Assembly: GCA_017992475.1 (NCBI GenBank)
Contig: JAGOOO010000004.1
Span: forward strand, 1 to 64,000
DNA length: 64,000 nt
DNA from: Caldisericia bacterium
Lineage (GTDB): Bacteria > Caldisericota > Caldisericia > JAAYUI01
Direction: 5' to 3'
Shown: positions 6,570 through 57,479 of the stretch, piece by piece
How positions within the stretch are numbered: position 1 is the first letter of the stretch
Layout of the letters: each line of letters begins with the position of its first letter
Notes under the pieces: generated by a model
The model's database searches: none
The model's input: the letters and a program-made list of their open reading frames with translations, nothing else
Told to the model about the DNA's origin: nothing
Translations under genes and position numbers: made by a program

Positions 6570-9551
6570 ATGCGCAGGGTATATACACTGTTACTAATTA
6601 TCACCATGATTGCATTTCCTGTTTACGGGCGCTCCCAGGAGGAGAAGACGCCTGACTGGACGCACATGCATGGTGATGCTTTTCATACAGCCTATTCGTC
6701 GGTCGAGCTTCCACCGCCATTGAAACTCTTGTGGAGAAAACCCTTTGACTCTGCGCCGCACAGCAATGTTGTTGCATGCTGGGATAGCGACACACCACTG
6801 CTTTTCACAGGCGATGGCTCCGGAAATTTCTTCTGCATGAAGCCAGACACTGGTGAAGTTGTTTGGAAATACAGTGTTGATGGCAGCGCTTTTCTTGGCT
6901 CTCCAGTAATTTTCACCTCTTATGATGGCACAAAAAAAGTAATGGCAGTTTCCTCTGATGGTATAAAAGACAGTGGCACTGGATCAATAATCGCCCATTG
7001 CTTCGATTTAAAGGGCAAAATCATCTGGAAAACATCACTGGACGGAACATTCTGCGAATCATCACCAACCTTTCAGAACGGCTTTCTATATGTAGCTACA
7101 GGAACTATGAGCCACGGCAGCAGCTCTGGCGGGTATCTTTACAAAATAAGACAGGACACTGGTGATTCTGTCTGGAAAGCCAGCCTGCCAGATGCGCCAG
7201 CAACAGCATCGCCATCTCTCATTGGCGGGAAAGTCTATATTGCATGCTCCAAACTCCATGTTGGCAGTTTTGATGGAAGATGGCTGGGTGCCTATATCAG
7301 GGGCGCTGTATTCGTGGCAGTTGACGATTCAAATGGCACTGCTGTCGACAAGCTAGACTACGGCAATATGAGGATGGACATCCTCACCGTTTATGATGGT
7401 GAGGAGATAATTCTTTCAGGCCAATCAGTTGCAGTTTACAGAAGAAAATACGTTGACCCAAGAGATCCAAGAAGATTTTATTATGTAGAGGTCGAAGAAC
7501 CAAAAAGCCTCGTTGCAAGAGTCAAGCCAGACAACCTCTCAACGGAATGGCGCAGTTACCCAACAATATATGGAGATGGTCACATTTACGCACACACACC
7601 GATCGTCTCGAACGGCTGGATAATAATCGGTGCAGATGAAGGGGTTGTCTACGCCTACAACAAAAAGGACGCAACACAGCAATGGGCATACAAAATGTCA
7701 AACGGAATCAGGCTTTGCATGGCCGCTTCCGACAACTACATCTATCTGAATGAAGGCGATACACCGCCAAATTGCGGGTCTTGCAAAGCCAAATTCAAGA
7801 TAGTGGAGATAAACAGTGGGAGAATACTCTGGAGTTACCAGCTTGATGAAGCTGGTCTTGGTGGAGTCACTGTTTTCGACAAATATGTTTACACTTTTGA
7901 CAGAGGGAACGTCTACTGTTTTACAAGATCAGGCCCGCCAAAATTAATGGTTGATCCAATAAAAATCGACCTTGGTGAGATACCAAAGGGCAGGACCGAA
8001 AAAACAAGTTTCAATGTCTGGAATGGCGGTGAAGGAACGCTTATCGGGACTGTAAAATTCAATGTTCCATATATGAAACTTTCCTCTGACCAATTCATGC
8101 TGACAACCGAGACAAAACAGTTTATCTGCACGATAGACACCAAAAATCTCACAGTGGGGCAGGTTTACAATATACCAATACTGGTTGAGGCTACAAACGG
8201 CGATAAGCAGACGGTCATAATCACCTTCACAGTGACAGGCCTGCCAATAATCAAGGTCACACCGCCAACAATTGACTTTGGAACAGTCGAGAAGGGTACT
8301 TACAGCGAAGCCGAAATATTCATAGACAATATTGGTGAAGGTACTCTTAGAGGCAATATTAAAACTGACATGGCTTGGTTGTCACTGGAATACCAATCAT
8401 GGGAAGGAAACCACAAAAAACTCATCGCAACAGCCGACACACTGATGCTCGATTATGATAGGAGCTACAAAGCAAACGTGTTCTTTGAAAGCAACGGTGG
8501 TACTGCGAAAGTTGAGGTCACGATAAAAATAAAACAGAAAGGGCCAAGGCTTGTTGTTTATCCAACAGAATTGATTTTTACAGATGTAAACTGGGGTGAC
8601 CAGCTGACAGGTACCTTTGCAATCTCAAATGGCGGCATCCAGACACTTGAAGGGACCCTTGAGCCAAACAGCGACTGGATAATCCTTTCATCAAAGGATT
8701 TTTCACTCACCACCGACCCAAAAAATTTCAAGGTGGAAATAGACACCAAACAACTTAAGGATGGGGCAACAACCAAGGGCCAAATATTGATAACAAGCAA
8801 TGGCGGTACAAAGGTAGTAGATATAACCATCACAATAAAGCCCAGGCCACCACAGCTCAAGGTTGATCCACCAACACTATTCTTCAACCAATGTGAGCCA
8901 GACCAGATATACGAATCAAAAATAACAATTTCCAATTTGGGTTCGGGTGTCCTCTCTGGTACAATAAAACCAGGCCCAGGAGCCGACTGGCTCAAAATAA
9001 AACAAGGTGTTTTTGACATAAGCAAGGCACCGATTGATATACCCATTATTGTCGACACAAAAGGGATGGCGAAGAACACCTCCTACACAGGCAAGATAAT
9101 TATCGAGTCAAATGGTGGAACCGATGAAGTCGGTGTTGTTGTCGTAATGAGCGAGAGAAAACGTTTTACAGTCGAGCTCTGGATTGGTTCCTATGAAGCA
9201 AGAATAAACGGCAAACCATCAAAACTTGATTGGCCTCCATACATCAACAAAGGTGCAACGATGGTCCCAGCAAGATTTATCTCAGAGGCTTTCGGGTGCA
9301 TAGTTGATTTTTACCCAAAACATAAGGCCATAGAAGAAATTTACATCTCGAGAGGAGAGGTGCAGGTAACGCTTTATGTAGGGAAAAATTATTGCCTCGT
9401 CGGGAATCAGAAAGTGCAGCTTGACGTTCCACCAGAAATAAAAAACAAGAGGACCTTTGTTCCAATAAGATTCATATCTGAAGTATTTGGCGCAGACATT
9501 GTCTGGGACAAAGACACGCAGAAGGTCACAATAGGTTACTGGCAGGACTAA
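6570..9551 (+). CDS. Secreted beta-propeller protein with Ig-like repeats and C-terminal stalk domain
   Basis: 993 residues. A signal peptide (MRRVYTLLLIITMIAFPVYG) is followed by a PQQ-type beta-propeller (about 30-450) with repeated blade signatures such as GEVVWKYS, GKIIWKTS and GRILWSYQ. Next come four tandem domains of about 105 residues (about 455-865), each opening with a phrase like LMVDPIKIDLGEIPKG and containing SNGG or WNGGEGTL; these resemble ASPM-SPD-2-Hydin or BACON-type Ig folds. The C-terminus (about 870-993) is a copper-amine-oxidase N-terminal-like 'stalk' domain with two VPARFISEAFG/VPIRFISEVFG motifs. It is probably exported and structural or ligand binding; no catalytic site is seen. 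An RBS (AGAGGTG) precedes the ATG. Confidence 0.85.
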   Translation: MRRVYTLLLIITMIAFPVYGRSQEEKTPDWTHMHGDAFHTAYSSVELPPPLKLLWRKPFDSAPHSNVVACWDSDTPLLFTGDGSGNFFCMKPDTGEVVWKYSVDGSAFLGSPVIFTSYDGTKKVMAVSSDGIKDSGTGSIIAHCFDLKGKIIWKTSLDGTFCESSPTFQNGFLYVATGTMSHGSSSGGYLYKIRQDTGDSVWKASLPDAPATASPSLIGGKVYIACSKLHVGSFDGRWLGAYIRGAVFVAVDDSNGTAVDKLDYGNMRMDILTVYDGEEIILSGQSVAVYRRKYVDPRDPRRFYYVEVEEPKSLVARVKPDNLSTEWRSYPTIYGDGHIYAHTPIVSNGWIIIGADEGVVYAYNKKDATQQWAYKMSNGIRLCMAASDNYIYLNEGDTPPNCGSCKAKFKIVEINSGRILWSYQLDEAGLGGVTVFDKYVYTFDRGNVYCFTRSGPPKLMVDPIKIDLGEIPKGRTEKTSFNVWNGGEGTLIGTVKFNVPYMKLSSDQFMLTTETKQFICTIDTKNLTVGQVYNIPILVEATNGDKQTVIITFTVTGLPIIKVTPPTIDFGTVEKGTYSEAEIFIDNIGEGTLRGNIKTDMAWLSLEYQSWEGNHKKLIATADTLMLDYDRSYKANVFFESNGGTAKVEVTIKIKQKGPRLVVYPTELIFTDVNWGDQLTGTFAISNGGIQTLEGTLEPNSDWIILSSKDFSLTTDPKNFKVEIDTKQLKDGATTKGQILITSNGGTKVVDITITIKPRPPQLKVDPPTLFFNQCEPDQIYESKITISNLGSGVLSGTIKPGPGADWLKIKQGVFDISKAPIDIPIIVDTKGMAKNTSYTGKIIIESNGGTDEVGVVVVMSERKRFTVELWIGSYEARINGKPSKLDWPPYINKGATMVPARFISEAFGCIVDFYPKHKAIEEIYISRGEVQVTLYVGKNYCLVGNQKVQLDVPPEIKNKRTFVPIRFISEVFGADIVWDKDTQKVTIGYWQD

Positions 9552-9743
9552 GATTGCAATGTATAACCATGACTAATAAATTGTGGATAAAAAATATAAA
9601 TTAATTGTGCTCATATTGTTAAATATAAAGTATTATTAGTTAAATCCAGTGCTTTTCTGTGATAAATTAATTTTCACTTATAAAACAAACAAATTGTGCA
9701 ATCATGATGACTTTTAAATATGCTTCAAAAAATCTTCTTTGCA
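9552..9743. other. AT-rich intergenic stretch
   Basis: Very AT-rich sequence after the stop of the beta-propeller gene, with no open frame of note and no RNA gene that I can recognise. The whole gap to the next gene is about 420 bases; its right part holds the two inverted repeats listed separately. Confidence 0.5.
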
Positions 9744-9779
9744 CATTGCAAAAATATTTAGATTTTTGCAATGTTTTTT
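9744..9779 (+). terminator. Intrinsic terminator after beta-propeller gene
   Basis: The arms cattgcaaaaat (9744-9755) and atttttgcaatg (9762-9773) pair perfectly over 12 bp around a 6-base loop, followed by TTTTTTC. It is AT-rich but has the layout of a rho-independent terminator reading rightwards, about 190 bases after the stop codon at 9551. Confidence 0.55.
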
Positions 9780-9853
9780 CACCATCTTGAATTTGGTGCA
9801 GTAAAATTACACTTATAATCAAAATCAAATGGGTCCGGCTTGATAGGGGGACA

Positions 9854-50730: not shown

Positions 50731-52380
50731 ATGAAGAAACTGACAGCTTTTTTGTTGTGTGCTCTGGTAATAATGCCGTGTTTTCAAACTGCCCTCTCTC
50801 AGGATGACAAACTGATCGAGCTTTCTCCAAAAGAAATTAACATTGTCGCAAAGCAGGGTGAAACGGCAACAGCCACAATGGGCATCTTCAACAGGGGTTC
50901 CAGCTCCCTCCTGTTTTCGCTCTCAAAGTCCTACAGCAAGGCAAAAACACAGCCTCTGGCATCACCAGATGGAAATATGCTGGTGTATCCAAGTTTCCTG
51001 GATTTCGGCACTGTACCCTCCAAAGGCGAGGTTTCGCAAACTGTTACATGTACAGCACCAACGGAACAATATCTCCAGGTCACGGCCTCAAGCGATGTGG
51101 AATGGATAAAATGTCTCATACGCAATATAGACAAAACGGTTGTTTCTGTAACAGTAACTGTCAAGCTTGATGGAATGGTCACGGGACAACTTTACAGGGG
51201 AAACGTCATTCTGGCTTCAAATGCCGGCCTTGTTCAGGTGCCAGTCATTCTTCAGGTGGCGACCACAACAGTCAAGGACTGGCTTTCATACAACCCCACA
51301 AACGGCATCGTCTCCCCTGGCAACAACACTGGGATACAGATAAAAGCATCAGCAAAAGGCCTCCCGTCAGGCGACCAGTTCGCAACAATCATCGTTACAT
51401 CCAATGATGAAAAACAGCCGGTCATTGAAGTTCCAGTCAAACTGACTGTAATCGCCGGTTCTCCTGCGCCATCCACGCCAGAAATATTCGTCGGCTATCC
51501 AGGAGATGGCAGGGCCCACCTTTTCTGGAAGCCAATCGCATCGCCAAACGTTGTTGGTTACTACATATTCAGGTCAAACAACCCGGGGATTTATACGGAT
51601 GTTGCAATAACCGATTTCTATGTCACCGGCACACAATACACTGACCCAAATGTCACCAACGGGCTGATTTATTATTACACAATCAAGTCGGTCGACCAGA
51701 ATGGCAATCTCTCTGACGCCTCAAACGAGATAATGGTCATGCCAAATCCGATAAAGCCTGTTGTCAACCTCAAGGACGGGCTGGTCACAAGAACGCAGGT
51801 ACTGGATGTGACCGGTGTCGCTGAACCAAACTCCCAGATCATCGTAAACGGGGAACTGGCAATAATTGACCCGGATGGCAAGTTCCAGGCCAAAACAGTG
51901 CTAAGGGTTGGTTCCAACACAATCACCGTCATAGTATTTGATCCGGGTGGCAATCAGACAAAATTCACATACAAGGTCAGTTTTTCTGCCTACACTACCG
52001 TGATCTTGATGGTTGGCTCCAAAAATGCCTGGGTAAACGGTGAAGAGAAAAAGAATGCCATGCCTCAGGCGCCAGTCATCATAAGCGGCAAGACATTCGT
52101 TCCTTTCCGCTTCCTTGGCGAAAGCCTGGGGGCAGACATCGGCTGGGACGACCAGACCAAAAAAGTCACATACACGCTTGAGGGCAAGAAAGTCGAGATG
52201 TGGATTGGCAAGACAACCGCATCAGTCGACGGAAAACCGGTTTCAGTCAACCCTCCACCACAAGTCATTGGTGGTTCGACATTCGTCCCGACAAGGTTCA
52301 TAACAGAGGCGCTTGGCGCATCCATTGAATGGAAAGCGGCAACCAAAACAGTAGTGATAACATATCCGGCAAAACCATGA
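50731..52380 (+). CDS. Secreted Ig/Fn3-like protein with C-terminal stalk domain
   Basis: 549 residues. Signal peptide (KLTAFLLCALVIMPCFQTALS), then two Ig-like modules of the BACON/Hydin kind (about 20-245: LIELSPKEINIVAKQGETAT, LVYPSFLDFGTVPSKGEVSQ), an Fn3-like module (about 250-335: GRAHLFWKPIASPNVVGYYI), a short Ig-like segment (about 340-425) and a copper-amine-oxidase-type stalk domain with VPFRFLGESLGADIGW and VPTRFITEALGASIEW, the same ending as the M1-type protein at 9979. Likely a surface or matrix protein without enzymatic activity. Its stop overlaps the dCMP deaminase start. Confidence 0.83.
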   Translation: MKKLTAFLLCALVIMPCFQTALSQDDKLIELSPKEINIVAKQGETATATMGIFNRGSSSLLFSLSKSYSKAKTQPLASPDGNMLVYPSFLDFGTVPSKGEVSQTVTCTAPTEQYLQVTASSDVEWIKCLIRNIDKTVVSVTVTVKLDGMVTGQLYRGNVILASNAGLVQVPVILQVATTTVKDWLSYNPTNGIVSPGNNTGIQIKASAKGLPSGDQFATIIVTSNDEKQPVIEVPVKLTVIAGSPAPSTPEIFVGYPGDGRAHLFWKPIASPNVVGYYIFRSNNPGIYTDVAITDFYVTGTQYTDPNVTNGLIYYYTIKSVDQNGNLSDASNEIMVMPNPIKPVVNLKDGLVTRTQVLDVTGVAEPNSQIIVNGELAIIDPDGKFQAKTVLRVGSNTITVIVFDPGGNQTKFTYKVSFSAYTTVILMVGSKNAWVNGEEKKNAMPQAPVIISGKTFVPFRFLGESLGADIGWDDQTKKVTYTLEGKKVEMWIGKTTASVDGKPVSVNPPPQVIGGSTFVPTRFITEALGASIEWKAATKTVVITYPAKP

Positions 52381-52835
52381 GACCAGACAAACCAACATAT
52401 TTTATGATGATAACTGACATCGTTGCCAAAAGGTCAACATGTCTCAGGCGCCAGGTTGGCTGTGTGCTGGTGGATTCAGACGGCAACATAAAAGCAACTG
52501 GCTACAACGGCGTTGTGGCAGGAATGACCCACTGCGACACCTGCCAGAGGGAGCTCCTGGCTTCCGGATCAGACCTCTGGCAATGCCCCGTCATTCACGC
52601 CGAAATCAACGCAATCTCGAGGTATGAGGGGCCAAGAAAAGACATTACCCAGATTTTCTGCACTACACTGCCGTGTTTCCACTGTGCAAAGGTCATTGCA
52701 AACACCTTTCCAAACCTTGAAGAGCTCCATTACCATGACGACTACCCGCACAGCGAGCTGATCAAGGAGGTCTTCATCAACAAAGGCATCAAGCTAATGC
52801 TCCACAAGGACGGCGAGGTGGAGGAGGCGAGATAA
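52377..52835 (+). CDS. dCMP deaminase family protein
   Basis: 152 residues from ATG 52377 (ATGA overlap with the gene before). The zinc-dependent cytidine/deoxycytidylate deaminase motif is PVIHAEINAI followed by LPCFHCAKVI (HAE...PCxxC). An extra HCDTC segment is present (GMTHCDTCQREL), as in ComE/dCMP deaminases that carry a second zinc site. It deaminates dCMP to dUMP on the route to dTMP. It is translationally coupled to a secreted structural protein gene, which makes little functional sense and may only reflect packing. Confidence 0.9.
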   Translation: MRPDKPTYFMMITDIVAKRSTCLRRQVGCVLVDSDGNIKATGYNGVVAGMTHCDTCQRELLASGSDLWQCPVIHAEINAISRYEGPRKDITQIFCTTLPCFHCAKVIANTFPNLEELHYHDDYPHSELIKEVFINKGIKLMLHKDGEVEEAR

Positions 52836-52851
52836 AAACACCAAATAAAAA

Positions 52852-54186
52852 TCAGATCGAATATCTCATGCTCATATCCGCATAGAATTTAAGATATCCT
52901 GCGATTTGCTCCGGTTTCTTAAAACAAGCAGGTTCGCCTAGGTCTCCCCTTTCAGAAAAGCTCTGGGCCACACATCCCCCAGCACAACTGGGGACAAGCG
53001 GACATTCAAGATCCAGGCAACGCTTGACCTTTGAGATCCTAGCATCAATCCACATTTTTTCTTTCATGCAGTCAATAGGAGCACTGAAATTTACATTTCC
53101 TATCTCAAAGCCTTCTCTCCCAATAAATTCCCAACAAGTCCCGATTGCGCCATCGGGCGATACTGTATAAAAACCCTTCGTGCCAACACCACAAAGATTT
53201 GACAACACAAGATTTTTTATGTATTTTCTTATGTGCTTGGCTCCCCCGCAAAAACCATAAGCATTGATCAGCTCAATGATTCCGGTTATCTTTTCAAAGT
53301 AGCTATCAATAGATAGGCATTTGCTTTTGTATCCAAGAGACTCCGGCGTCATATGGACAACAGGATATGCATAAACACGCAAATTCTCATGATTCGAAAA
53401 ACCCCTTTTGTCCAAATCCATTAAAAGGCCTTTCAGTGAAAAGGCGTTCTCCAGATCAATATTTACCCTGATCTCAATATTTGGGATCTTTCTATTGATT
53501 GCTTCCCCTATTCCATTCACAACATCTTCGTAGGATGGTTTTCCACCTACATAGAACCTTTTTGAATCATGATTCTTTTTATCCCCGTGGATTGTCACCT
53601 GTATCCTTTCCAATGGCACAGACTTCATGAATCCACCAAGCTTTTTCCTCAGCAACGACCCATTGGTGGTCATTCTCGGAGATATCTTTACTGAAGGATT
53701 TGTTTTTGAAATTTCCTCATAAATATATCGAAAATGATCAGGAAACAAAAGAGGTTCCCCGCCATAGCAGGCCATGATAAAATGACCGATGTTAAACTTT
53801 TTCAGATGGCCCTGAATGAATCTGACCAGATTTTTTAATGTCCCTTCATCCATGATGCGATCATCTCTGGCCTCATAACAGTACGGGCAAGCAAAATTGC
53901 ATGCAAAAGATGGAGCTATCGTTATATCAAGGGTATCATTTTTCCATGTTTCTCTGGAAAATTTTTCAATCAGAAAGGATTTCTCATCAAAATTTTCGTC
54001 AACCAAAAAGAACGCATTTGACAATTCCTTGCAAGTTTTCTCTTCTTCCGGTAAGTTGCCACTGTTTATGAGACTGATCAGCCTCTTATCAATTATAATT
54101 ATGGAACCGGATATTGTAGACATCAAAACGTATTTATTTTCATCCAATTCTTTGGCAATAATAAATTTTGAAAACCTAAGACCCAT
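52852..54186 (-). CDS. Radical SAM/SPASM peptide maturase
   Basis: 444 residues from ATG 54186, five bases after the GGAGGA site; the frame is open upstream but that part overlaps the hairpin and precursor gene. The N-terminal ~85 residues (MGLRFSKFIIAKELDENKYV) have the look of a small recognition domain. The radical SAM cluster motif is CNFACPYC (Cys96, 100, 103), with ACYGGEPLL and MTTNGSLL following. A C-terminal SPASM region has CGVGTKGFYTVSPDGAIGTC and CLDLECPLVPSCAGGC for auxiliary clusters. Enzymes of this build form thioether or C-C links in ribosomal peptides. The 62-residue Cys-containing peptide encoded just upstream is the obvious substrate. No transporter or protease lies beside it. 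Confidence 0.88.
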   Translation of the reverse strand: MGLRFSKFIIAKELDENKYVLMSTISGSIIIIDKRLISLINSGNLPEEEKTCKELSNAFFLVDENFDEKSFLIEKFSRETWKNDTLDITIAPSFACNFACPYCYEARDDRIMDEGTLKNLVRFIQGHLKKFNIGHFIMACYGGEPLLFPDHFRYIYEEISKTNPSVKISPRMTTNGSLLRKKLGGFMKSVPLERIQVTIHGDKKNHDSKRFYVGGKPSYEDVVNGIGEAINRKIPNIEIRVNIDLENAFSLKGLLMDLDKRGFSNHENLRVYAYPVVHMTPESLGYKSKCLSIDSYFEKITGIIELINAYGFCGGAKHIRKYIKNLVLSNLCGVGTKGFYTVSPDGAIGTCWEFIGREGFEIGNVNFSAPIDCMKEKMWIDARISKVKRCLDLECPLVPSCAGGCVAQSFSERGDLGEPACFKKPEQIAGYLKFYADMSMRYSI

Positions 54187-54204
54187 AATCTCCTCCATAG
54201 ACTC

Positions 54205-54252
54205 AAAAAATATTGGGGGAGACGATTGACTATTTCTCCCCCAATATTTTTT
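54205..54252 (-). terminator. Attenuator hairpin between precursor peptide and maturase
   Basis: aaaaaatattgggggaga (54205-54222) and tctcccccaatatttttt (54235-54252) are perfect 18-bp arms with a 12-base loop, reading leftwards into a T-run. It lies between the precursor stop and the maturase ribosome-binding site, so most transcripts would end after the precursor. This gives high peptide and low enzyme levels, as in many RiPP operons. Confidence 0.85.
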
Positions 54253-54265
54253 TAAACACCAACCA

Positions 54266-54454
54266 TCAGACCATTGCATTATTGGTCCAGCACCTATAAT
54301 TTGGGCACGAGCAGACTTCCATGGTAGCAGGATTGTAGTTTTGTTGGTCAATCCAGACAACTGACAAACCAGAAATGGGTTCCATGATTTCTGTATTAAC
54401 AAGGCCACTTTCAACCGATACCTTTATCGAGTTTATATTGTGCTGATATGGCAT
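54266..54454 (-). CDS. Candidate RiPP precursor peptide with three C-terminal cysteines
   Basis: 62 residues. ATG 54454 follows a very strong AAAGGAGGTGG site. The first ~45 residues (MPYQHNINSIKVSVESGLV, then MEPISGLSVVWIDQQNYNP) would be the leader; the last part, EVCSCPNYRCWTNNAMV, holds Cys48, Cys50 and Cys55 with Tyr53 and Trp56 between and beside them, the likely modified core. No cysteine occurs in the leader. The maturase gene follows 79 bases downstream across an attenuator hairpin. It does not match a precursor family I can name (not the six-Cys SCIFF pattern). The modification type is unknown. Confidence 0.78.
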   Translation of the reverse strand: MPYQHNINSIKVSVESGLVNTEIMEPISGLSVVWIDQQNYNPATMEVCSCPNYRCWTNNAMV

Positions 54455-54737
54455 CCCTCCACCTCCTTTCTGCTCAATTGAGTAGCATCGTATTATTTGA
54501 CATCAAGAATTGATCGTTAAATCAAATTATCCATTATGATAATTATTTGAATGGTTATTTTTAACCTTTTTAATATTCCAATTTTTTTATAATCAGTTTT
54601 TTTGAAAATACCCAAAAAAGTTGATCAGGAAACTATTGCATCAGTATCATACCGAATACCTGACTTTTTACTATAAATCGTAGTATTAGAAATCATGGCG
54701 ATTTTATCAATAAAAAGTCAGGAGGAATTTTTGTAGA
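54455..54737. other. Divergent intergenic region
   Basis: An AT-rich 283-base gap between the leftward precursor gene and the rightward polyferredoxin gene. It must hold both promoters; no near-consensus pair stands out. On the minus side AATAAT about 45 bases before the precursor ATG, with TTTAAC 18 bases further, is a weak candidate. Confidence 0.4.
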
Positions 54738-55520
54738 ATGAAACAAAAAAGGTATGCACTCATCCGTCATCTCTCCCAAATTGGCTTTGTACTTCTGATT
54801 CTGTATTACACTCTGGGGCGATTTATTTTTCCTGGGGTCAGGGGAATCGAACTACACGGAATCTGTCCCTTTGGTGGGGTAGAGACATTGCCAACATTTC
54901 TTGCTTCTGGGGGTCTAAAGTTTGTCCATGAAACAGGCCTGTCAAACTTTGCCATGCTGGCGGCACTTCTGCTTGCCGTGCTGGCGTTTGGCGGGGCGTT
55001 CTGTGGCTGGGTCTGCCCTGTGGGTTCGATCACAGAATGGCTGTTCATGTTGAGGAGGGTATTCTGGAAAAAGAGAATAACTGTTCCAGAAAAATTGCAC
55101 AACATTCTGGTCTGGTTCAGATATGTCGTCCTTGCCGCCATCCTTTACATGACCTTTGCAACAGGCTTTCTGGTGTTTGGCACAGTCGACCCGTTCCTGA
55201 GTCTTTTCTCGTTTGGCAGGGTGTTTGCCGTTGGCCTTGTCGTCCTGGTGCTCATCCTGATCGGCTCGATGTTTATCGAGAGGTTCTTCTGCAGATACCT
55301 TTGCCCGCTTGGCGCAGTCATTCTCCCGTTTGCAAAGCTCTCGGCAACAGGCGTTGTGCACTCAAATGAAGATTGCACGTCATGCAAGGGGTGCGAAGAA
55401 GTCTGCCCAAAACAGATACCAATCAGTAGGTATAAAAAAGTAGACAGGGGCCAGTGCATCAGCTGCATGAAATGCGTTGAAGAATGCCCGACGGCCCTCA
55501 GCTTCAAGATTGGATGGTGA
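54738..55520 (+). CDS. NapH/CcoG-like membrane polyferredoxin
   Basis: 260 residues, five or so membrane helices. Two membrane-embedded cysteine motifs, FCGWVCPVGSITEW and FCRYLCPLGAVI, are followed by a C-terminal pair of [4Fe-4S] sites, CTSCKGCEEVCP and CISCMKCVEECP. This is the 4Fe-4S membrane electron-carrier family related to NapH, CcoG and RdxA. It would pass electrons across or along the membrane to an unknown acceptor. GGAGGA lies 10 bases before the ATG. The next gene starts five bases downstream and the pair ends in a terminator, so they form a two-gene operon. It is divergent from the radical SAM locus and could supply electrons to it, which is speculative. Confidence 0.85.
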   Translation: MKQKRYALIRHLSQIGFVLLILYYTLGRFIFPGVRGIELHGICPFGGVETLPTFLASGGLKFVHETGLSNFAMLAALLLAVLAFGGAFCGWVCPVGSITEWLFMLRRVFWKKRITVPEKLHNILVWFRYVVLAAILYMTFATGFLVFGTVDPFLSLFSFGRVFAVGLVVLVLILIGSMFIERFFCRYLCPLGAVILPFAKLSATGVVHSNEDCTSCKGCEEVCPKQIPISRYKKVDRGQCISCMKCVEECPTALSFKIGW

Positions 55521-55896: not shown

Positions 55897-56340
55897 TCAG
55901 CCGTTTTTCTCTATGGCCTCTAGTGTCATCAAAAGATTATCTATGAGTTCAATAATTATGGTGTACATGGCAAATAGCCCGCATGATAACACAAAAATGG
56001 TCCATGCTATCTCTGTAAAAATGGGATATCGATGATTGCGTAAGAGATAGATCAGAATTATGTCAGTCGATATGACAACAAGTCCGCAAACAAGTTTTAT
56101 AAACCAGCTCCTGGAATAAAATGATGCCGGATTTTTTTCAATCTTTTTTTTGAAAATTCGTTTGTATAGATGGATAGTGGGACAACCAAACAAAACGGCG
56201 AACAGGATAAAGACACCAAATTCATTTGTTCTTATACAAGCATATATCTCATCATTGGACAAAACATGGCCATATAAATTCATAAATGCTACAAGAACAA
56301 TCACCAATAAAATGCTTAGAACAAGGATTTTTTTCCACAT
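55897..56340 (-). CDS. Small membrane protein family, copy 3
   Basis: 147 residues, four hydrophobic segments: WKKILVLSILLVIVLVAFM, then FGVFILFAVLFGC, a charged turn (RIFKKKIEKNPASFYSRSWF), KLVCGLVVISTDIILIYLL, and a last helix ending IIIELIDNLL. The block FYSRSWFIKLVCGL is shared with copies 4 and 5 and, less strictly, 1 and 2. Family and role are unknown to me. The start codon is fixed by TATAAT seven bases upstream (56353-56348); there is no ribosome-binding site. It is the last of three leftward copies here, each with its own promoter. Confidence 0.72.
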   Translation of the reverse strand: MWKKILVLSILLVIVLVAFMNLYGHVLSNDEIYACIRTNEFGVFILFAVLFGCPTIHLYKRIFKKKIEKNPASFYSRSWFIKLVCGLVVISTDIILIYLLRNHRYPIFTEIAWTIFVLSCGLFAMYTIIIELIDNLLMTLEAIEKNG

Positions 56341-56347
56341 GTTATTT

Positions 56348-56353
56348 ATTATA
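56348..56353 (-). promoter_or_regulatory. -10 box, leaderless, copy 3
   Basis: Minus strand TATAAT (56353-56348), then AAATAAC, then ATG at 56340. A segment upstream (AAAAGAGAATATT) is shared with the region before copy 4. Confidence 0.6.
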
Positions 56354-56419
56354 CAAAATATTCTCTTTTAAGGAATAGATATAATACCTGCAATAAAAAG
56401 AGGGGATTCAAAAAGACAT

Positions 56420-56833
56420 TTAATTATTCTTTTTCATCTCCAAATAAATCAACTCAAGAACTCCAACAAAGAAAATAAACGATCCGTATGATGCCGCAAA
56501 AGCAATCAAGGTTGTATCTATACTTGTTTGCTCAAAGCCATCAAATAACGGATAGATCTGGAACAGATCAAACGCAATGGTAATAAATCCACAAACGAGT
56601 CTAATAAACCATCTTCTGGAATAAAGCGGCACGTGGCCTTGTTCGATTTTTACATTAAAAATTAACCTATACAAATAGTAGATGGTAAGATACACCGTAA
56701 TCAAAAGGACGACAGAAAGGATATCCTTAAGGCTTATGTGGGATGCCGGTTTGAAGATAAAAAAATAAGCAATTACAAGTGCTAGTGTCAAAAATATCGA
56801 GAAAACATATTGAAAGATTTTTTTCTTCCCCAT
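56420..56833 (-). CDS. Small membrane protein family, copy 4
   Basis: 137 residues, four hydrophobic segments. MGKKKIFQYVFSIFLTLALV opens the protein; then TVYLTIYYLYRLIFNVKIEQ, the signature HVPLYSRRWFIRLVCGFITI, and a last helix with YGSFIFFVGVLELIYLEM. It is most similar to copy 5, which shares VPxYSRRWFIxLVCGFITIAF nearly unchanged. The gene is a stand-alone unit with TATAAT six bases before the ATG. Function unknown; multiple copies kept side by side suggest dosage or variant use. Confidence 0.74.
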   Translation of the reverse strand: MGKKKIFQYVFSIFLTLALVIAYFFIFKPASHISLKDILSVVLLITVYLTIYYLYRLIFNVKIEQGHVPLYSRRWFIRLVCGFITIAFDLFQIYPLFDGFEQTSIDTTLIAFAASYGSFIFFVGVLELIYLEMKKNN

Positions 56834-56839
56834 GTTTTT

Positions 56840-56845
56840 ATTATA
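56840..56845 (-). promoter_or_regulatory. -10 box, leaderless, copy 4
   Basis: Minus strand TATAAT (56845-56840), AAAAAC, ATG at 56833: exactly the same twelve-base junction as copy 5. Confidence 0.62.
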
Positions 56846-56931
56846 TAGAATATTCTTCTTTTATAAAGTAGGTGTAAGATTCAGATTTGTAATAAAAAAT
56901 AAGGGGATCAAAAATATTTTAGTTATTTTTC

Positions 56932-57342
56932 TTATTTCTCCCAATAAACCAACTCAAAAGCTCCAACATATAGAATAAACAAAATATAAATTGTGACAAA
57001 AACAATCAAAGTCCTTTCGATATACAAGTGCTTAAAACCATTAAATAGTGGATGGATAAAAAATAAATCAAACGCAATAGTAATAAACCCGCAAACGAGC
57101 TTGATAAACCATCTTCTGGAATAAAATGGCACGTGGCCTTGTTCATCTTTTATCTTGAAAACTACTCTGTATAAACAGTAAATTGGGAAATAAATCATCA
57201 TGGCAATAGTAATAAAAAAGACATTTTTTACGCAAACTTGGAGAAACATGAGGCAAAGTGCGAAAAGGAAATACCTAATAAGATAAAGTATTAATATCGA
57301 GATTACAATAAAAGCACTTATAACAAGGATTTTCTTCCACAT
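56932..57342 (-). CDS. Small membrane protein family, copy 5
   Basis: 136 residues from ATG 57342. The frame is open another 15 codons but these cover the promoter. Segments: WKKILVISAFIVISILILYL, VCVKNVFFITIAMMIYFPIY, the turn RVVFKIKDEQGHVPFYSRRW, then FIKLVCGFITIAFDLFFIHP and a final VTIYILFILYVGAFELVYW. It is near-identical to copy 4 across the central block. Unknown function. Confidence 0.74.
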   Translation of the reverse strand: MWKKILVISAFIVISILILYLIRYFLFALCLMFLQVCVKNVFFITIAMMIYFPIYCLYRVVFKIKDEQGHVPFYSRRWFIKLVCGFITIAFDLFFIHPLFNGFKHLYIERTLIVFVTIYILFILYVGAFELVYWEK

Positions 57343-57348
57343 GTTTTT

Positions 57349-57354
57349 ATTATA
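57349..57354 (-). promoter_or_regulatory. -10 box, leaderless, copy 5
   Basis: Minus strand TATAAT (57354-57349), AAAAAC, ATG at 57342. If the box occupies -12 to -7, +1 falls on the A of ATG. Confidence 0.62.
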
Positions 57355-57479
57355 AACAAATATACATTTTTTAAAAGCGCGTATCACATCACTGATATCA
57401 ATAATTCTCTTGAATTTTCATGCTGTTTACCCAAGAAATTGGTAATCTTTGATTGTATGAAATCTACAAATATTTTTTC

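Follow-up and report, generated by a model that had tools for sequence, protein, structure and literature searches.

The locus described here raises a simple question: does a small peptide gene belong with the radical SAM/SPASM enzyme gene that follows it, and if so, what would the enzyme do to the peptide? Both genes lie on the minus strand of a Caldisericia contig, within a window of 64,000 nucleotides (the whole stretch of DNA that was analysed). An earlier note, made from the letters alone, had read them as a two-gene RiPP locus with a three-cysteine precursor of no recognised family.

Organization and conservation of the gene pair

The precursor gene (54266..54454, minus strand) encodes a peptide of 62 residues, MPYQHNINSIKVSVESGLVNTEIMEPISGLSVVWIDQQNYNPATMEVCSCPNYRCWTNNAMV. 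Its start codon is ATG, the sequence upstream reads AGCAGAAAGGAGGTGGAGGG, and an in-frame stop lies upstream of the ORF, which is therefore not a piece of a longer one. The strong ribosome-binding site described in the earlier note (AAAGGAGGTG, 54460..54469, minus strand) is present and conserved in three species, and translation of the ORF bears out that the only cysteines are C48, C50 and C55, all within the final 15 residues. The peptide matched no family of Pfam or NCBIfam, as that note had supposed, and neither Rfam families nor tRNA were found at the locus. A gap of 79 bases separates the precursor from the enzyme gene and holds a terminator-like hairpin (54205..54252, minus strand), with an 18-bp stem and T-rich sequence behind it (-26.9 kcal/mol, z -3.1). 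The shape of this hairpin is kept in all three species despite differences in sequence; in G003 its sequence is different and the structure even longer (-30.7 kcal/mol, z -5.6). The maturase gene (52852..54186, minus strand, 444 residues) likely starts at ATG 54186 (MGLRFSKF...), behind GGAGGAG at 54190-54196. The start of the mechanical ORF, TTG 54414, is unlikely and would extend the enzyme gene back across the hairpin and into the precursor.

The pair is flanked by a dCMP/cytidine deaminase-like gene (52329-52835) convergent to it and by a gene for a membrane 4Fe-4S protein (54738-55520) divergent from it, and thus forms its own transcription unit. In a fourth species of the genus (G001) the deaminase and membrane Fe-S genes are again neighbours, and homology between the window and G001 ends at 52828 and 54659, so that the cassette extends over 52829..54658. 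The same site in G001 is occupied by unrelated genes, namely ORFs of 74 and 341 residues on the strand opposite to that of the pair (L134:6685-7948); neither gave anything above cut-off against Pfam, and the longer one had no match in PADLOC. Precursor, promoter region and enzyme therefore come and go as a unit of ~1.8 kb. The insertion site itself looks like a small accessory-gene hot spot. Beside the locus, three tandem membrane-protein paralogues of ~140 residues and unknown family are encoded (55897-57387, minus strand), and their copy number varies by species, with four in G003 (L027:5280-7246). The earlier note had seen no exporter or protease nearby; none lies near the locus, the cassette likewise holds no immunity-like gene, and no C39 peptidase was found in the genome, which is 74% complete.

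Among the 101 related genomes searched, close matches to the pair, besides the window itself, were found only in G002 and G003, two further species of the same genus that each have both genes. Identity to these orthologues is 97-98% for the peptide and 89-98% for the enzyme. The precursor is under strong purifying selection, with dN/dS of about 0.04 (0.0067/0.183 against G002 and 0.0135/0.383 against G003, the latter corresponding to 11 synonymous and two non-synonymous codon differences), and the value for the maturase against G003 is 0.0503/0.425. All three cysteines are unchanged in the three species, while position 49, a Ser in this genome, is occupied by Ala in G002 and G003; these species are closely related and sample the constraint on the core poorly.

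The association of peptide and maturase is real and not a chance one, given the same genes, order and strong ribosome-binding site in two other species; a conserved precursor adjoins the maturase in three of the three species having an orthologue. The distant enzyme relatives examined go without this peptide, from which one could argue that the small ORF has nothing to do with the enzyme gene beside it. We consider it extremely improbable: the two genes keep one order in three species and are present or absent together in one cassette, and a cysteine peptide beside an RRE enzyme is the expected pairing. The earlier note had proposed to look for maturase homologues lacking a similar peptide, and on this point both true orthologues are accompanied by it, which leaves the proposed pairing standing; the distant relatives (<=31% identity) are uninformative. 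No similar peptide was found near roughly 80 of these, and many adjoin different small peptides that contain cysteine, such as the geopeptide-like MKSLIRKK...AQCCAKISTIVAGCHD. The viral contigs searched gave no match, the plasmids searched only relatives of <=31% identity, and a scan of a contig collection with a generic radical SAM motif only distant relatives among the matches listed.

The leader and a repeat protein of a sister genus

Residues 1-47 of the precursor (54314..54454, minus strand) would constitute the leader, and the cluster C48-x-C50-x4-C55 (54290..54313, minus strand) is the probable core, whose boundary we infer at EVCSC.... The leader resembles part of a protein in G004, which represents a sister genus of the same family. 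This protein of 228 residues (L149:6089-6775, G004:C14) starts with two tandem repeats of ~48 residues (L149:6089-6382) that align to leader residues 1-47 with identities of 32% and 37%; the second has NPATM in common with the leader. The C-terminal half of the protein is repetitive and possibly beta-helical. The repeats score 66 and 72 against the leader, whereas 2000 shuffles of each reached no more than 35 and 41. The initial search gave an E-value of 0.0024 for one genome, which is weak across 386 genomes, and the argument therefore depends on the occurrence of two repeats in tandem, on an alignment that runs from start to start and on how closely the organisms are related. The strong scores that a profile gives on the repeats are not independent evidence because the profile was built from them. 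A search of the 386 genomes with the single precursor protein gave weak matches that fell mostly within long unrelated ORFs, and of these the tandem pair of G004 alone withstood further tests. The resemblance of the leader to a flagellar-export-like segment in G308 was set aside, since chance would give an E-value of 0.0035 in some genome when 386 are searched. The 228-residue protein matched no family and had no homologue in 60 other related genomes, and no close maturase was found in G004.

On these alignments, the leader may be a shared module. It is conceivable, though on balance we lean slightly against it, that a pre-existing module of ~47 residues acquired a three-cysteine tail and a divergent CX4C-SPASM maturase as partner, and that a new RiPP family arose in this way, distinguished by a leader domain of its own. 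Nitrile-hydratase-like leader peptides follow a comparable logic. If the leader is truly shared with a larger protein, it would provide a fresh case of RiPP leader origin.

The repeats also bear on another reading, in which the peptide is a carrier and its cysteine tail is modified so as to supply another protein with a cofactor or metal site, or itself to become one there. The G004 protein that bears the leader-like repeats does not look like a RiPP, and a cassette free of exporter, protease and immunity-like gene would suit such a role. However, no partner protein was found, and a swappable accessory cassette that is absent from G001 fits an essential cofactor poorly, making this reading very unlikely in our judgement.

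Motifs, fold and relatives of the maturase

The enzyme carries the CX3CX2C motif of the SAM-cleaving 4Fe-4S cluster (C96, C100 and C103; 53878..53901, minus strand) and a SPASM domain (52924..53193, minus strand) with seven cysteines (C332, C351, C390, C395, C401, C405 and C421), and none of these 10 cluster cysteines varies in 32 relatives. The enzyme scores 49.5 bits with the Radical_SAM model PF04055 (cut-off 29.5) and 44.6 bits with TIGR04085 (cut-off 27), and the seven-cysteine SPASM motif CX9-15GX4C-gap-CX2CX5CX3C-gap-C is present with one deviation in spacing. The earlier description of a radical SAM/SPASM enzyme with CX3CX2C and two C-terminal cysteine groups thus stands in its motifs, and it is the spacing of the second group that has to be corrected, from the usual CX2CX5CX3C to CX4CX5CX3C. 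The two additional residues lie in CLDLEC (53002..53019, minus strand) and are confined to the clade of three species; relatives with a readable motif have CX2C, except for one with CX3C (L041). In a tree with 78 relatives this clade forms a long branch of its own (1.66 changes per column, support 100/100), and its place among the other groups is unresolved.

None of the NCBIfam maturase-family models reached its curated cut-off. The nearest are mostly maturases of cysteine peptides, and a literature search on the names of these nearest families found no paper. A match to viperin among the PADLOC models covers the radical SAM core only and was rejected as generic.

The full-length maturase is predicted (pLDDT 87) to consist of an RRE, then a radical SAM barrel and finally a SPASM domain, the three-domain build of enzymes that cross-link peptides. 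Its best full-length fold match is CteB (5why/5wgg; E 3e-19 to 4e-18, TM about 0.7), followed by TigE, anSME and ChlB, and identity to characterised thioether enzymes in the fold alignments is only about 18-19%. Residues 1-85 (53932..54186, minus strand), folded alone (as the N-terminal 84 residues, pLDDT 90.6), are predicted to form a small sheet and three helices. The top solved matches of this isolated domain are TbiB1-leader complexes (6.8e-3, prob 0.99), TigE, LynD and TruD, and although the E-values are modest, all of its first 11 matches are RRE-bearing RiPP enzymes or RRE proteins. A leader-binding RRE is accordingly a predicted domain of this enzyme. Such an N-terminal domain is common but not universal among radical SAM/SPASM RiPP maturases. 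Among the top matches, TigE, TruD and TbiB1 carry RREs, that of TbiB1 being a lasso-peptide RRE. LynD also carries an RRE (PMC6231123).

Several further maturase loci came to light. The same genome holds a second RiPP locus separate from the pair (L036, G000:C20:66000-80000; 6928-9831, minus strand), in which three cysteine-rich peptides of ~106-111 residues (with MNWIVKPG.. or MKWIVNPM.. starts) accompany a maturase of RRE/SPASM type. These peptides have the look of a Cys-every-fifth (CefB-type) pattern; the maturase reaches no NCBIfam cut-off (its highest score is with Clo7bot, 292 bits of 600) and occurs also in G001, G002 and G003, with similar peptides in G001. In G002 a maturase of 310 residues without the SPASM half lies beside a 105-residue multi-cysteine peptide near a contig end (L037:9653-11013), and is either decayed or cut by assembly. 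The archaeon Methanosaeta sp. PtaU1.Bin112 has seven consecutive radical SAM/SPASM maturase genes on one strand (L038, 660-10009), between which the small-peptide filter found no obvious cysteine peptide, and in a Zixiibacteriota MAG three consecutive 40-residue peptides with a CCC motif at their ends (LGCCCQQLTGS and the like) follow just after a maturase gene (L077:6390-6900).

Proposed chemistry and comparison with known systems

The reading that we favour, and hold to be probable, is that the pair is a self-contained two-gene RiPP cassette in which the maturase forms thioethers in the cysteine tail CSCPNYRC of the precursor. The precursor would be made in excess of the enzyme, owing to its strong ribosome-binding site and the attenuating hairpin before the enzyme gene, and its 47-residue leader would dock on the RRE-like N-terminal domain, as the predicted fold suggests. 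Reductive cleavage of SAM by the maturase, at the cluster bound by C96, C100 and C103, would yield the 5'-deoxyadenosyl radical, which would abstract a side-chain hydrogen in the CSCPNYRCWTNN tail. By analogy with CteB and PapB, a cysteine sulfur on an auxiliary SPASM cluster would then be joined to that carbon; between one and three thioether rings would result, each marked by a loss of 2 Da. Release and export would call for housekeeping partners encoded elsewhere, unless the peptide works within the cell.

The acceptors of these bonds cannot be read from the sequence, in which residue 49 is the sole variable core position among three close species. PapB links Cys to Asp at CX3D, can use Glu and tolerates other spacings (PMC9413430), and NxxcA uses Asn as acceptor (PMC8326336). 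Since the spacings C48-x3-N52 and C55-x3-N59 equal those of the PapB CX3D rings, the beta carbon of Asn (N52, N59) might serve as a first-guess candidate acceptor. The thioether reading is weakened by the low identity to characterised enzymes and by the lack of an exporter or protease nearby.

It is also weakened by WTN in the core, which fits the i/i+2 rule for three-residue cyclophanes followed by XncB and OscB (PMC11002830). The maturase might thus make a carbon-carbon link, most simply Trp56-Asn58, leaving the cysteines to bind metal or form disulfides, and cyclophane-forming families are indeed detectable relatives (YhhB 58, FxsB 47 and GrrM/OscB 41 bits). Yet their scores fall well short of those of the cysteine-peptide maturases (118-183 bits), CteB leads the fold matches, and W-T-N is a match of only three residues that could be chance; we regard such a link as unlikely. 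Thioethers at alpha carbons, as in sactipeptides, are to our mind quite unlikely as well. Sactisynthases share the enzyme architecture, their products are indistinguishable by sequence from side-chain thioethers, and SkfB is among the fold matches, though a weaker one that ranks 22nd. CteB and PapB, which form side-chain thioethers, are nearer by fold or by model, and RumMC and StsB are absent from the 25 best NCBIfam models. Side-chain thioether formation remains our preferred reading. As a small, complete and easily coexpressed pair from an uncultured lineage, with a three-cysteine substrate and few possible acceptors, the cassette would allow a tractable test of how RRE-SPASM enzymes choose donor and acceptor, and its CX4C spacing is a natural variant for probing the role of the second auxiliary cluster.

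Among known systems, CteB, the SCIFF/thermocellin ranthipeptide maturase of Clostridium thermocellum (PDB 5WGG/5WHY), shows the same order of RRE, radical SAM and SPASM domains, and three 4Fe-4S sites are expected in the window enzyme too. The leader of its substrate CteA docks as a beta-strand against the RRE of CteB, and a cysteine of the same peptide is bound at Aux I (PMC8326336, PMC6231123). The window enzyme differs in being 18-19% identical and in its CX4C, and it falls outside the SCIFF family, with 62.8 bits for TIGR03974 against a cut-off of 425 and a substrate of three cysteines in place of six. The PapB (freyrasin) family, NF047865, matches over the whole model with 118 bits (cut-off 340) and likewise acts on a cysteine substrate; CX3N here resembles CX3D, whereas PapA has six Cys-to-Asp CX3D links and the window peptide no CX3D. 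Of the NCBIfam models, that of CefB, the maturase of Cys-every-fifth peptides (NF038107, cut-off 600), scores highest, with 183 bits in an alignment of almost full length, but the window substrate lacks that pattern, with three cysteines only, at spacings of x1 and x4. The maturases of TIGR04463 (175 bits of 525), geopeptide (TIGR04280; 154 of 400) and Clo7bot (TIGR04334; 142 of 600) share the enzyme build and the adjoining small cysteine peptide, while the precursors near such relatives have no sequence similarity to that of the window. The pair is a new precursor family with a divergent maturase of a known kind, a genus-level addition to a large known class.
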